Assembly: GCF_013408925.1 (NCBI RefSeq)
Contig: NZ_JACCAB010000001.1
Span: forward strand, 3,038,001-3,102,000
From: Pedococcus badiiscoriae
Lineage (GTDB): Bacteria; Actinomycetota; Actinomycetes; Actinomycetales; Dermatophilaceae
Direction: 5' to 3'
DNA length: 64,000 bases
This document shows positions 1-62,975 of this stretch, one piece after another (the first letter of the stretch is position 1; each line of letters opens with the position of its first letter). Both the position numbers and the translations under genes were made by a program. The notes under the pieces were generated by a model. It saw nothing but the letters and a program-made list of their open reading frames with translations. It had not been told where the DNA came from and searched no databases.

Positions 1-644
1 CCCTCCTGGGTCCGCAGGTCGAGGTCCGGCGGGTGGCTGCCCGTCCGCAGTCTCGACACGGCGTCGTCGATGAAGCGGTGCAGCACCTCGGGCTCGACAT
101 CGGTGAAGGAGAACCCGTCGTCGAGGTCGACGTGGTGGTAGACGACCTCGCGAAGCCGCATGAACGGCAGTGCCCGCGGCGAGATCTTCATGCCCCCGCG
201 CATCTCGACCTCGTCGACGGCGAGCGGACCGCCGAGGGCTGCCAGCGGCGGGGCGAGCGCGGCCGCGGTACTGCGCAGGTCATCGGCGAAGACGCCAGCG
301 GGTCGGTGGTCGCCGGCCGAGGCCGGCCCGGCCCGCAGGGCGCCCTCCTCGATCTCGGCGTCGCGCGCCGCGGTGCCACCCGGGTACATCTCCCGGGGCT
401 GTCCGTCGAGCGCCCACTCGGCCAGTCGCCGGATCGCGTCCGCGTTCCGGGCCACGTGGCTCAGGACGTGGGCGCGGCTCCAGCCCTCGCACAGCGACGG
501 CGCCCGGACGTCGGTCAGGTGGGTGGCGTGGTCCACCAGCAGCTCGGTATGCCGTGCCACCGCCCTGAGGTCCGCATCGAGGCCGGGACGCGGTCTCGGG
601 GCACCGCCTGATCCAGCTCCGGCCTTGCCGGCGTCCTCGGTCAC
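1..644 (-). CDS. Maleylpyruvate isomerase family protein (MDMPI/DinB fold), 3' end off window
   Basis: About 214 residues are present and the C-terminus lies beyond the left edge. The start is GTG at 644-642, overlapping the stop of the upstream GH15 gene as GTGA, with GGAGGAG about 7 nt upstream. The N-terminal four-helix region carries LCEGWSRAHVLSHVARNADA (about residues 52-71), and a later segment carries VVYHHVDLDDGF. This is the pattern of mycothiol-dependent maleylpyruvate isomerase-like proteins, in which His and Glu/Asp side chains bind a divalent metal. Members act in gentisate breakdown or in other mycothiol-dependent reactions, and no catabolic neighbours are visible here, so the substrate is unknown. 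The coupled start implies co-transcription with the GH15 gene. The frame shows high GC at third positions. The family call is fairly secure; the reaction is not. Confidence 0.72.
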   Translation of the reverse strand, partial: MTEDAGKAGAGSGGAPRPRPGLDADLRAVARHTELLVDHATHLTDVRAPSLCEGWSRAHVLSHVARNADAIRRLAEWALDGQPREMYPGGTAARDAEIEEGALRAGPASAGDHRPAGVFADDLRSTAAALAPPLAALGGPLAVDEVEMRGGMKISPRALPFMRLREVVYHHVDLDDGFSFTDVEPEVLHRFIDDAVSRLRTGSHPPDLDLRTQE

Positions 645-2455
645 GGCAGCTCTCCTCCGGGGGTTGCGGCGCCTTTCCGTTCGGCCTCGGCGAGCGCGTG
701 GGCCGCGCCGATGAAGGTGAGGTGGGAGAACGCCTGCGGGAAGTTTCCCACCATCCGCCCGCCATGGGGGTCGTACTCCTCGGAGATGAGGCCCACGTCG
801 TTGAACAGCAGCACCAACCGGTCCATCAGCTCCCGGGCCTTCTCGACCTGGCCGCAGACGGCATACGCACTCACCAGCCACCATGAGCAGGCCAGGAACG
901 GGTGCTCGTCGCCCGCGAGTCCGTCCACGCCGGTCTCGGTGCGGTAGCGCAGCAGGAAGCCGCCGCGCATCAGGTCCGCCTCGATGGCCGCGACCGTGCC
1001 GATGACCCGCGGGTCATCGGGCGGGAGGAACCCGACGAGGGGGATGAGCAGCAGCGAGGCATCGACCTCGGTGGTGTCGTAGTGCTGGGTGAAGGTGTTG
1101 CGCTCGGCATTGAAGCCCTTGCTGAGGATCTCGTCGCGGACCTGGTCCCGTAGGTCCCGCCACCGCTCGACGGGACCGTCGAGGCCCCACTTCTCGACTC
1201 CTCGGACCGCCCGGTCGAACGCCGCCCACACCATGACGCGTGAGTGCGTGAAGTGGCGCAGCGGACCGCGGATCTCCCACAGCCCGTTGTCCGGCTCCTG
1301 CCAGTGACGGGCCAGGTTCTGGACCAGGGCGCGCTGCATCGACCACGACTGGGTCGACACCTCGAGTCCCTTCGCGCGGGCTTCGTCGAGCGCGATCATG
1401 ACCTCGCCGAGGACGTCGGACTGCCGCTGGTCGACGGCACCGTTCCCGATCCGGACGGGGGCCGACCCGGCATACCCGGGCAGGTGGTCGAGGGTGCGCT
1501 CGGGAAGGCGACGAGACCCGTTGATGGTGTACATGATCTGCAGGTCCTCGGGGTCGCCGGCGACGGCGCGCAGCAGCCAGTTGCGCCAGAGCCTGGCCTC
1601 GTCGACGTAGCCCGACGCCAGCAGCGCCTCCAGGGTGAGGGAGGCGTCGCGCAGCCAGCAGTAGCGGTAGTCCCAGTTGCGCTCGCCGCCGAAGTCCTCG
1701 GGCAGGCTCGTCGTCGGCGCCGCCACGATCCCCCCGAAGCGCGAGTGGGTCATCGCGCGCAGGGTCAGCAGCGACCTCATGACGAGCTCGCGGTAGGGGC
1801 CCTCGTAGTCGCACTGCGCCGCCCACTCGTTCGAGGCCCTGATGGTCTCGGCGATCCTCGAGTCGATGTCCAGGGGCGGTGGGACCTGCTCGTAGGAGGG
1901 GAACCAGGTCGTCGAGAAGGTGTAGGTCTGCCCGGCCTCGACCTCGAACTCGTCGACGTGGCGCCCGCCGCGGGCGCGGGGGAGCCGGCTGCCGCGCAGC
2001 ACGAGCATGTCCGGCCCCGCGACAGCGGTGATCACGTCGCCGTCGAGGCGGTGGCCCGTGCTGTGCGAGACCCACGGTCGCACCTTGCCGTAGTCGAAGC
2101 GGACCACCCACTCGTGCTGCATGGTGACCGTTCCGTGCAGGCCCTGCACGCTGCGGACGATGTCGGCCCGTCCGTCGCCGAGCGGCATCAGGTCGAGCAC
2201 CTTCACCGCGCCGGTGTCGGTCTCGTGGATCGTCTCCAGCACGAACGAGTTCTCGACGTACTTGCGGGTGCTCGTGGTCTGCCCCACAGGACCCAGGAGC
2301 CAGCGGCCGTGGTCGGGCGTGCCGAGCAGCGCGGCGAAGCAGGCGGACGAGTCGAAGCGCGGCAGGCACAGCCAGTCGATCGACCCCGCACGGCTCACGA
2401 GGGCGGCGGTCTCGGTGTCCCCGAGGACGGCATACTCCTCGATCGGCGTCGTCAT
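641..2455 (-). CDS. Glycoside hydrolase family 15 protein (trehalase/glucoamylase-like)
   Basis: 604 residues. The N-terminal beta-sandwich begins with a [20 protein letters not shown] segment, typical of the actinobacterial trehalase-like GH15 group. The (alpha/alpha)6 barrel follows, with [20 protein letters not shown] at about residues 258-277 and the C-terminal [20 protein letters not shown] segment (about 555-580), where the family's second catalytic glutamate lies. No signal peptide is visible, so it is cytoplasmic. Characterised relatives hydrolyse trehalose, others glucans; the sequence alone does not settle the substrate. The ATG at 2455 lies 6 nt after a TACGCT -10 box with no ribosome site, which suggests a leaderless mRNA. 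The maleylpyruvate isomerase-like gene follows with a 4-nt overlap. Confidence 0.85.
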
Positions 2456-2461
2456 GGCGTG

Positions 2462-2467
2462 AGCGTA
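2462..2467 (-). promoter_or_regulatory. -10 box TACGCT of GH15 gene (leaderless)
   Basis: TACGCT on the minus strand is followed by 6 nt (CACGCC) and the ATG at 2455. No purine-rich ribosome site fits between them. A convincing -35 box was not found. Confidence 0.5.
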
Positions 2468-2485
2468 TTCGTTCCGGGGCCCAGG

Positions 2486-2525
2486 GGCAGGGTTCAGGGC
2501 CGGGTTCAGGGGCAGGGTTCAGGGG
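2486..2525. repeat. Tandem GGGTTCAGGG-type repeat spanning a stop codon
   Basis: About three imperfect copies of GGGTTCAGGG (near 2490, 2502 and 2515) lie between the GH15 promoter and the lipoprotein gene. The leftmost codons of the lipoprotein gene, including its TGA (2521-2519), are the last unit. This looks like slippage duplication of the gene's 3' end. Confidence 0.6.
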
Positions 2526-61824: not shown

Positions 61825-62144
61825 CAGCGGGTGATCTGCTCGGGGCCGTCGCCGCGCGGCGTCACCGGTGCCGACGAGCCCGGCGCACGTGGGCGGACGG
61901 CGTTGGCCAGCACGACGGCCACGTACGGGAGCAGGATGGCGGCGACCGCGAGGCTGCCCCACAGCCACCACGGGGCCCCCCGCGTCGCGGTCAGCACGGC
62001 CAGGATGAAGCACGCGGTGCGGATGCCCATGGTCACGAGGTAGCGCCGGATCCGGCCCGCCTGCTCCTGCGCCAGCGACTCCGGGACGGTCGTCACCGAC
62101 TGCACGACGGGCTCGTCGTGGTGGTGGCGGTGGGGGCGCGGCAC
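61824..62144 (-). CDS. DUF3099-like membrane protein
   Basis: 106 residues. GTG 62144 lies 6 nt after TATCGT, so leaderless. His-rich N-terminus (PRPHRHHHDE), then two hydrophobic segments (LVTMGIRTACFILAVLTAT and GSLAVAAILLPYVAVVLANA) separated by a short Trp-rich loop APWWLWG. This resembles the DUF3099 family of actinobacteria. A Pro/Arg/Gly tail ends at the overlapping stop. Function unknown. Confidence 0.7.
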   Translation of the reverse strand: MPRPHRHHHDEPVVQSVTTVPESLAQEQAGRIRRYLVTMGIRTACFILAVLTATRGAPWWLWGSLAVAAILLPYVAVVLANAVRPRAPGSSAPVTPRGDGPEQITR

Positions 62145-62150
62145 ATGTCC

Positions 62151-62156
62151 ACGATA
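62151..62156 (-). promoter_or_regulatory. -10 box TATCGT of DUF3099 gene (leaderless)
   Basis: TATCGT on the minus strand, 6 nt (GGACAT), then GTG at 62144. Confidence 0.5.
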
Positions 62157-62264
62157 GGCGTCGCAGGATGCGGTGTACCCATGGGTAGTCGATAAGGTCG
62201 CGACCGAGGCGCAGCGCGGGTGCGCGCCCGCTGGACGCACCGTCGAGACACACGGAGGACATCC

Positions 62265-62975
62265 ATGGCAGGCCGCAACGTGCTGGTCACCGGGGGCAAC
62301 CGGGGGATCGGCCTGTCCATCGCCACGGCCCTGGCTGAGGCGGGCGACAACGTCGTGATCACGCACCGCTCCGGCGAGCCGCCCGAGGGGCTGCGCGGGG
62401 TTCGGTGCGAGGTGACGGACTCCGCCTCGGTCGACCAGGCGTTCACGGAGGCGGAGGAGATCTGGGGCGGCCCCGTCGAGGTGCTGGTCGCCAACGCCGG
62501 TGTCACCCGGGACGGCCTGCTCATGCGCATGAGTGACGAGGACTTCGACTCCGTCATCGACACCAACCTGGCCGGCGCCTTCCGCTGCGCACGGCGTGCG
62601 GTGAAGGGCATGATCAAGGCCCGCAGGGGACGGATCATCTTCATCTCCAGCGTCGTCGGGCTCTACGGCTCACCCGGCCAGACCAACTACTCGGCGAGCA
62701 AGGCGGGCCTGGTCGGCCTGGCCCGCTCGATCTCCCGGGAGCTCGGTGGCCGCGGGATCACGGCCAACGTGGTGGCCCCCGGCTTCATCGAGACCGACAT
62801 GACGGCCGAGCTGCCCGAGGACCGCAAGAAGGCCTACCAGGCCACCATCCCGGCCGGCCGGTTCGCCCAGCCGGAGGAGGTCGCCGCAGCGGTGCGCTTC
62901 CTCGCCGGCGACGACGCGGCATACATCACCGGCGCGGTGATCCCCGTCGACGGCGGCCTCGGCATGGGCCACTGA
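62265..62975 (+). CDS. fabG: 3-oxoacyl-ACP reductase FabG (FabG1/MabA-like)
   Basis: 236 residues, ATG 62265 with GGAGG 8 nt upstream; the frame extends to 62220 without support. Short-chain dehydrogenase: [20 protein letters not shown] near residue 6, NAGV-type [20 protein letters not shown], catalytic Ser in [14 protein letters not shown] and YxxxK in [17 protein letters not shown]. It reduces beta-ketoacyl-ACP with NADPH in fatty acid elongation. Its pairing with the InhA-like gene is the mycobacterial fabG1-inhA arrangement. Confidence 0.93.

Follow-up and report, generated by a model that had tools for sequence, protein, structure and literature searches.

The window, that is, the whole 64,000-nucleotide stretch of DNA analysed here, covers positions 3,038,001 to 3,102,000 of the single-contig genome (3,386,878 bp) of the soil actinobacterium Pedococcus badiiscoriae, whose genus is placed by NCBI in the Intrasporangiaceae, Actinomycetota. 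It carries the octamer GTATGCCG in exactly 38 copies, 19 on each strand, which span positions 547 to 62924. In 100 dinucleotide-preserving shuffles of the window the word occurs 0.77 times on average and at most four times, and it is the top octamer of the window when words are ranked by their excess over a third-order Markov model (38 versus 1.4). An earlier note on this DNA had counted at least 38 copies, had described them as balanced between the strands and had stated that every GTATGCC extends to the octamer. All of this is borne out, G following GTATGCC in 38 of 38 cases, and the enrichment proved stronger than had been stated. According to our own gene calls, 31 copies are genic, six are intergenic and one lies across a called gene start. 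The genic copies fall into the Tyr-Ala (20), Ala-Tyr (6), Gly-Ile (3) and Arg-His-Thr (2) frames, in agreement with the frames and the six intergenic copies reported before; only the coordinate 40285 given in the earlier note is wrong, as this copy starts at 40284.

In the following account of the individual copies, fractions in brackets give the number of same-genus genomes with an intact copy over the number of genomes aligned. Copies in the Tyr-Ala frame are found on the minus strand, in genes of the same strand, at 859..866 (3/4), 1468..1475 (2/4) and 2428..2435 (0/5), all in gene 641-2455, at 23770..23777 in gene 23411-24145 (2/5), 25808..25815 in gene 25293-26822 (5/5), 29250..29257 in gene 28498-29655 (0/5), 30884..30891 in gene 29652-31880 (5/5), 33977..33984 in gene 33345-34214 (3/5) and 60256..60263 in gene 59705-60499 (5/5). 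On the plus strand, again in genes of the same strand, this frame is used at 21622..21629 in gene 20621-21847 (4/5), 32531..32538 in gene 32112-33068 (5/5), 37860..37867 in gene 36631-39696 (4/5), 40149..40156 in gene 39790-40554 (5/5), 42076..42083 in gene 41972-43174 (4/5), 44466..44473 in gene 44341-45639 (5/5), 48504..48511 in gene 48112-49713 (4/5), 50929..50936 in gene 49835-51511 (3/5), 54228..54235 in gene 53407-54798 (5/5), 56565..56572 in gene 56179-56904 (4/5) and 58533..58540 in gene 57814-59682 (5/5). The Ala-Tyr copies run antisense to their genes. They reside on the minus strand at 17121..17128 in gene 16211-17146(+) (3/5), 32185..32192 in gene 32112-33068(+) (3/5), 51826..51833 in gene 51726-52478(+) (4/5), 56300..56307 in gene 56179-56904(+) (4/5) and 62917..62924 in gene 62265-62975(+) (5/5), and on the plus strand at 33804..33811 in gene 33345-34214(-) (2/5). 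The Gly-Ile frame is represented by 2761..2768(+) in gene 2519-3649(-), which is aligned in none of the five genomes, by 34671..34678(+) in gene 34339-35166(-) (4/5) and by 40284..40291(-) in gene 39790-40554(+) (5/5), the Arg-His-Thr frame by 547..554(+) in gene 1-560(-) (1/4) and 27138..27145(+) in gene 26834-28486(-) (3/5).

Two of the intergenic copies, 13224..13231(+) and 13245..13252(-) (3/4 each), form the left and the right arm of one hairpin. This convergent pair (13224..13252) is predicted to fold into a stem-loop of -33.1 kcal/mol in a terminator-like place, 44 bp after gene 12775-13179(+). The remaining intergenic copies are located at 19457..19464(+) (2/5), 19575..19582(-) (4/5), 44330..44337(-) (0/5) and 49752..49759(-) (4/5), while the copy at 46629..46636(+) (5/5) straddles the start called for gene 46636-47010(+). 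A 10.4-kb gap without GTATGCCG, 2769-13223, extends over seemingly ordinary chromosomal genes. It was considered as an island and rejected as such; UvrA-like and branched-chain amino-acid transporter-like genes were recognised there by eye from the translations.

The abundance of the motif is not a peculiarity of the window. The whole genome contains 1,934 copies, 963 forward and 971 reverse, or about one site per 1.75 kb, while the same letters read backwards occur 60 times (28 + 32). GTATGCCG also ranks first by third-order Markov excess (244 versus 11.8) in a 464-kb sample comprising the window and 20 evenly spaced 20-kb stretches of the same genome, so that a frequency near the Markov expectation, which the earlier note had named as a refuting outcome, is excluded. 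Analyses at the level of letters cover 674 of the 3,387 kb of the genome, and the remainder is covered by pattern and family counts only. In the 464 kb, 244 of the 255 occurrences of GTATGCC continue with G. Flanking preferences are weak: copies are preceded by G (-1) in 52 % of cases and followed by C or T at +8 in 78 % and by G at +9 in 74 %. These preferences lead to an extended consensus of about gGTATGCCGYG and vanish within a few bases on both sides. Most single-base neighbours of the octamer occur at about background level in the same sample; the few exceptions, with a two- to threefold excess, are GGATGCCG (89 versus 47), CTATGCCG (16 versus 5.5) and GTTTGCCG (10 versus 4.9). The word is not palindromic, its reverse complement being CGGCATAC. 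The 18 stretches of 20 kb sampled outside islands have Poisson-like counts (mean 11.3, variance 12.0), and no sampled stretch is strongly strand-skewed, the origin not having been located. The motif thereby differs from Chi and the FtsK-orienting polar sequences (KOPS), which are likewise short, frequent and non-palindromic but strand-skewed.

One rival reading is that the octamer reflects nothing more than codon-pair bias or some repetitive element; the large share of genic copies in a single frame speaks for it. The frames were compared in 494 kb containing 454 genes called by us (84.7 % coding) with synonymous shuffles made within genes. Here, 209 copies are genic, 46 intergenic and three lie across gene ends; the intergenic share (17.8 % of copies in 15.3 % of the sequence) is as high as length predicts. 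The Tyr-Ala frame indeed holds most genic copies, 116 of 209, against 11.5 in the shuffles. All six frames nevertheless exceed the synonymous-shuffle expectation, with 51 versus 3.4 copies for Ala-Tyr, 21 versus 1.4 for Gly-Ile, 10 versus 2.5 for Met-Pro, 8 versus 1.0 for Arg-His-Thr and 3 versus 0.3 for Val-Cys-Arg, and enrichment in a single frame, the second refuting outcome that had been named, is thus excluded as well.

In five genomes of the same genus with 82-86 % identity, 25/37, 31/37, 25/37, 29/37 and 18/32 of the aligned window copies are conserved, while the conserved fractions for octamers of the same composition are 0.40, 0.43, 0.38, 0.36 and 0.31. Synonymous sites in sister genomes had been proposed as a check in the earlier note. 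At conserved Tyr residues, 80 of 91 TAT codons inside GTATGCCG are retained, compared with 13 of 74 outside (Fisher 1e-20), and at conserved amino acids GCA is kept in 24 of 32 cases inside and 93 of 435 outside (9e-10). The corresponding comparison for ATA is uninformative (9/10 inside, 5/5 outside). The codon-retention cases, pooled as they are over five relatives, do not represent independent observations. In the region around the ComEC gene, all 11 aligned copies are conserved in Pedococcus bigeumensis (any octamer 0.32); in Knoellia koreensis the figure is 8 of 11 (any octamer 0.20), and the 3/10 and 2/10 conserved in loci L072 and L075 are near the background of 0.20 and 0.18. Because of the enrichment in six frames and the retention of TAT inside but not outside the motif, codon-pair bias is rejected. 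Intergenic copies as frequent as expected by length also speak against it, and a repeated element does not agree with a flank preference that is gone within a few bases; we give these two explanations practically no chance. GTATGCCG represents a genuine motif family under strong selection at the DNA level, as the earlier note had proposed.

Copies of GTATGCCG are also arranged non-randomly with respect to each other. Throughout the genome, 45 convergent pairs with a gap of 2-32 contrast with 8.6 expected from independent random placement of the copies (P 2e-18), while divergent pairs number 15 (P 0.03). Among the six convergent pairs with a gap of 2-40 in 674 kb, five are intergenic hairpins with fold energies from -21 to -43 kcal/mol; the sixth is situated within a called gene. 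Four of the five intergenic pairs, including the one at 13224-13252 of the window, reside just past a gene end. Convergent pairs outnumber divergent ones in all 11 genomes of the genus and, outside it, in G013, G021, G027, G031, G032 and G035, with equal numbers in G015. In their surplus of inverted pairs in terminator-like positions, the copies resemble the uptake sequences known from other bacteria, and the hairpins may act as terminators. A peculiar arrangement was seen in genome G025, where divergent pairs CGGCATAC..GTATGCCG occur repeatedly at fixed spacing. Among 34 of its 40 divergent pairs, the gap is exactly 10 in 17 and 7, 10, 13 or 16 in 31, which recalls the dyad pairs of DNA uptake sequences in Simonsiella muelleri (PMC3630211). 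The same genome has many convergent pairs with nearly one stem, GTATGCCGCTGAGCCGGCTCAGCGGCATAC, as though a terminator cassette had spread.

These arrangements bear on the possibility that GTATGCCG is bound by a nucleoid-associated or otherwise chromosome-organising protein, whose sites would be needed for compaction or segregation at the density of about one per 1.75 kb. The Poisson-like spread over the genome, the strand balance and the conservation of the copies speak for such a site. An excess of convergent intergenic pairs, on the other hand, is not predicted by it, nor is the lack of the motif in so many members of the family, fewer than 300 copies being present in 76 of 186 genomes of the GTDB family. 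We consider this explanation improbable.

GTATGCCG is scarce in recently acquired DNA, as observed for one prophage stretch and one island. The prophage stretch, 20.6 kb from the copy at 194,663 to the next one at 215,251, contains no copy at all (P 8e-6) and is bordered on both sides by DNA of normal motif density; three of eight proteins tested from it match phage families (tape measure, primase, excisionase). The island, at about 2,352-2,423 kb, has a lower G+C content and encodes a transposase and a resolvase. About 66 kb examined contain 7 copies where about 38 are expected (P 1e-9); the limits of the island were set after seeing the data, and 5 kb inside it stand outside the count. Within this motif-poor island, near the transposase and resolvase genes, a block of about 2.7 kb encoding several small proteins occurs twice in tandem (L023:6007-10592, about 2,406-2,411 kb). 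The motif-poor stretch L153 (2,355,001-2,375,000), with a low G+C content of 0.63-0.64, is gene-sparse by our own caller, encodes large proteins and is possibly a defence island.

The distribution of GTATGCCG among relatives is sharply limited. In the GTDB family, 110 of 186 genomes, our own included, and 31 of 53 genera have at least 300 copies. An order-level draw of 396 genomes contained 34 from this family; the other 362, from 19 families, have at most 180 copies, with the control at 195 (the figures 110/186 and 180 were tallied by hand from tables). The motif is thus confined to one GTDB family, which corresponds to Intrasporangiaceae and Dermacoccaceae of NCBI. Within motif-rich genera, single genomes are poor: G151 has 50 copies and its 30 congeners 394 to 1,901, G127 has 19 and its congeners 1,062 and 3,681, and G065 (89 % complete) has 37 and its congeners 1,251-1,660. 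Among 46 of 80 named loci (L070-L118 minus three shorter than 8 kb), 19 carry at least five copies. They derive from Pedococcus, Phycicoccus, Knoellia, Janibacter sp. HTCC2649, Flexivirga, Metallococcus, Leekyejoonella and the metagenome-assembled genomes (MAGs) L076 and L078. The closest relative of our ComEC among named genomes is that of P. bigeumensis, with 83 % identity in the best segment.

Some relatives use related words. Flexivirga (66 kb, three loci) carries GTATGNCG, with 34 copies of the C form, 29 of the A form, 15 of the G form and 13 of the T form (3-4 expected each). GTATGNCG is also present in G013, and Metallococcus and Leekyejoonella show a tendency towards it in small samples. 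In a midpoint-rooted tree of ComEC from 25 named loci and our own genome, the Dermacoccaceae (NCBI) bearing GTATGNCG form a clade (98/99), and the Intrasporangiaceae bearing GTATGCCG together with the MAGs form a separate one (100/100), inside which Janibacter massiliensis has one copy in 21.6 kb. Genera poor in GTATGCCG had looked empty in 40-kb samples (17 of 20 genomes, with G012, G018 and G023 dropped for their tiny first contigs), and longer samples gave dialect-like words. A de novo word search in seven such genomes returned as first word GGATGCCG in G026 (142 versus 18, six frames), GTACGCCG in G033 (73 versus 15; T form 56 versus 13, G form 55 versus 15) and CGTACGCC in G034 (120 versus 24, six frames). 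The result was less clear for G011, with GGATGCCG first (68 versus 16 in 140 kb), and weaker still for G020 (CCGGACGC 72 versus 22, GGACGCCG 87 versus 32), and no frame-spread word was returned for G019 and G024. In outgroups, some G+C-rich forms are raised up to about 2.9-fold, and we therefore regard the words of G026, G033 and G034 as probable dialects and those of G011 and G020 as possible ones only. Dialects with GTATGCCG and GTATGNCG thus exist, and those with GGATGCCG and GTACGNCG probably do too. The flanks vary as well, C preceding the motif at -1 in 78 % of copies in G017 and in 26 % in our own genome. Some high-ranked words in G033 and G029 turned out to be local tandem repeats and not dialects; one such word recurs every 37 bp in G029 (L060:6784-6969), and a 24-bp repeat lies within a called gene of G033 (L042:5009-5633).

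The earlier note had offered a HIP1-like element (HIP, highly iterated palindrome), an uptake sequence, a methylation site and a nucleoid-protein site as readings. Of these, the uptake sequence fits best: the number of copies, the existence of dialects, the hairpins made by convergent pairs, the lack of copies in the prophage and the limitation to one family match the DNA uptake sequence (DUS) of Neisseriaceae and the uptake signal sequence (USS) of Pasteurellaceae. The DUS is likewise a short non-palindromic word with about 1,900 to 6,000 genic and intergenic copies per genome, inverted pairs at terminator-like places, dialects that follow phylogeny and family members without an obvious motif (PMC3630211). 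Its letters are unrelated to those of GTATGCCG, however, which occurs in a Gram-positive host without detected PilB/PilT-type pili. In addition, DUS changed in one base outnumber exact DUS in Neisseriaceae (PMC3630211), whereas the neighbours of GTATGCCG are mostly at background. The USS shares hundreds to thousands of copies, inverted repeats and two dialects with a constant inner core with our motif and differs from it in letters and phylum (PMC12616744). The DUS is read by the minor pilin ComP (PMC3630211), while for the USS a receptor is predicted only (PpdA/ComN; PMC12616744) and none is proposed by name here. Inverted pairs of both serve as terminators (PMC3630211, PMC12616744).

HIP1 and the other HIPs of cyanobacteria share with GTATGCCG high iteration, a length of eight and lineage variants, and a matching methyltransferase was present in every HIP genome examined by Elhai (PMC4390886). 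By analogy, an orphan methyltransferase might read GTATGCCG, and repair or another function linked to methylation might keep it. HIPs are palindromic, however, and GTATGCCG is not. A co-occurring methyltransferase had also been suggested as a check. PF01555, the sole family searched, is missing from our own genome, and 8 of the 11 genomes searched in the genus lack it, which is weak evidence because PF02384, PF07669, PF00145 and others were not searched. We regard a methylation-linked, HIP1-like motif as very unlikely, still more so than a nucleoid-protein site.

Taken together, GTATGCCG resembles an uptake sequence in those features that can be read from sequence, and its membership in this class is putative. 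We consider it probable that Pedococcus and its relatives are a naturally transformable lineage of actinobacteria and that GTATGCCG is their DNA uptake sequence. Genes that could serve such a process are present. Those for ComEA and ComEC, named from sequence and the latter also by a match to PF03772, adjoin in our genome. One tad locus encodes two Flp pilins, CpaB, TadA, the T2SSF-type proteins TadB and TadC, and a TadE/G-like protein; a second one comprises genes for TadA, a DUF4244 protein and TadE-like proteins, the last named by eye. Five T2SSE matches were found in our genome, the best with an E value of 2e-65. Matches at 1e-126 to 1e-143, which we take to be of the PilB/PilT type, occur in other relatives and are absent here. 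Flp pilin is encoded in all 11 genomes of the genus, in 7 of 12 motif-rich genomes outside it, in one of 10 motif-poor genomes and in one of three with low counts (G026, G029, G030). In G004, a genome with 2,537 motif copies, the ComEC match at G004:C1:1517076-1517881 is in two pieces, owing to a frame break or a sequencing error.

Micrococcus luteus offers a parallel for these genes. It belongs to the same phylum and NCBI order, has, like our genome, both comEA and comEC along with at least two tad clusters, and requires Flp/Tad pili for transformation (PMC6370729). It differs in that no uptake sequence is mentioned for it in the available part of that source (PMC6370729), and its genome was not searched for one.

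Several observations weigh against an uptake sequence. One of the five intergenic convergent pairs in 674 kb lies between two gene starts, and convergent pairs are fewer than divergent ones in G014, G017, G022, G025 and G028. ComEC is encoded in 57 of 58 relatives regardless of motif count, Flp pilin is missing from five of the 12 motif-rich genomes outside the genus, G011, poor in GTATGCCG, retains a tad locus like our own one, and the motif-poor genomes G151, G127 and G065 of rich genera retain Tad-type ATPases. None of the genes tested among relatives (ComEC, T2SSE ATPases, Flp pilin, the tad locus) tracks the motif, and gene content in the form of ComEC, T2SSE ATPases or Flp pilin was accordingly rejected as a switch for it.

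If GTATGCCG serves DNA uptake, a surface protein, most likely a minor pilin of the Tad pilus or ComEA, would bind double-stranded DNA bearing the motif, and Tad pili, ComEA and ComEC would import it. Homologous recombination would then propagate the copies, and the uptake bias would act as a drive by which perfect copies arise and persist at sites that tolerate them. Dialects would arise as the specificity of the receptor drifts between genera.

Uptake sequences serve some naturally transformable bacteria as tags by which DNA of their own kind is recognised and taken up. Neisseriaceae and Pasteurellaceae, two families of Proteobacteria, are described as the only ones known for them (PMC12616744). 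Our literature searches, with thin coverage of subscription journals, found no uptake sequence in actinobacteria; a literal search for GTATGCCG gave only seemingly unrelated hits among the matches listed. In a study of Veillonella, the authors' own screen for uptake words was inconclusive. The system described here would, as we judge likely, be a third, independent one and the first outside these two families. With a little less assurance, we also think that it evolved independently, would be the first such system from a Gram-positive phylum as well as the first associated with Tad pili, has two or more dialects across the family, with four or more being probable, and was ancestral to Intrasporangiaceae and Dermacoccaceae and repeatedly lost. 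If this reading proves true, a receptor system whose dialects and losses occur in nature would be available for study, natural competence would be predicted in genera for which we found no report of it in the literature, and a third case, in Actinomycetota, would indicate that uptake-sequence systems evolve repeatedly.

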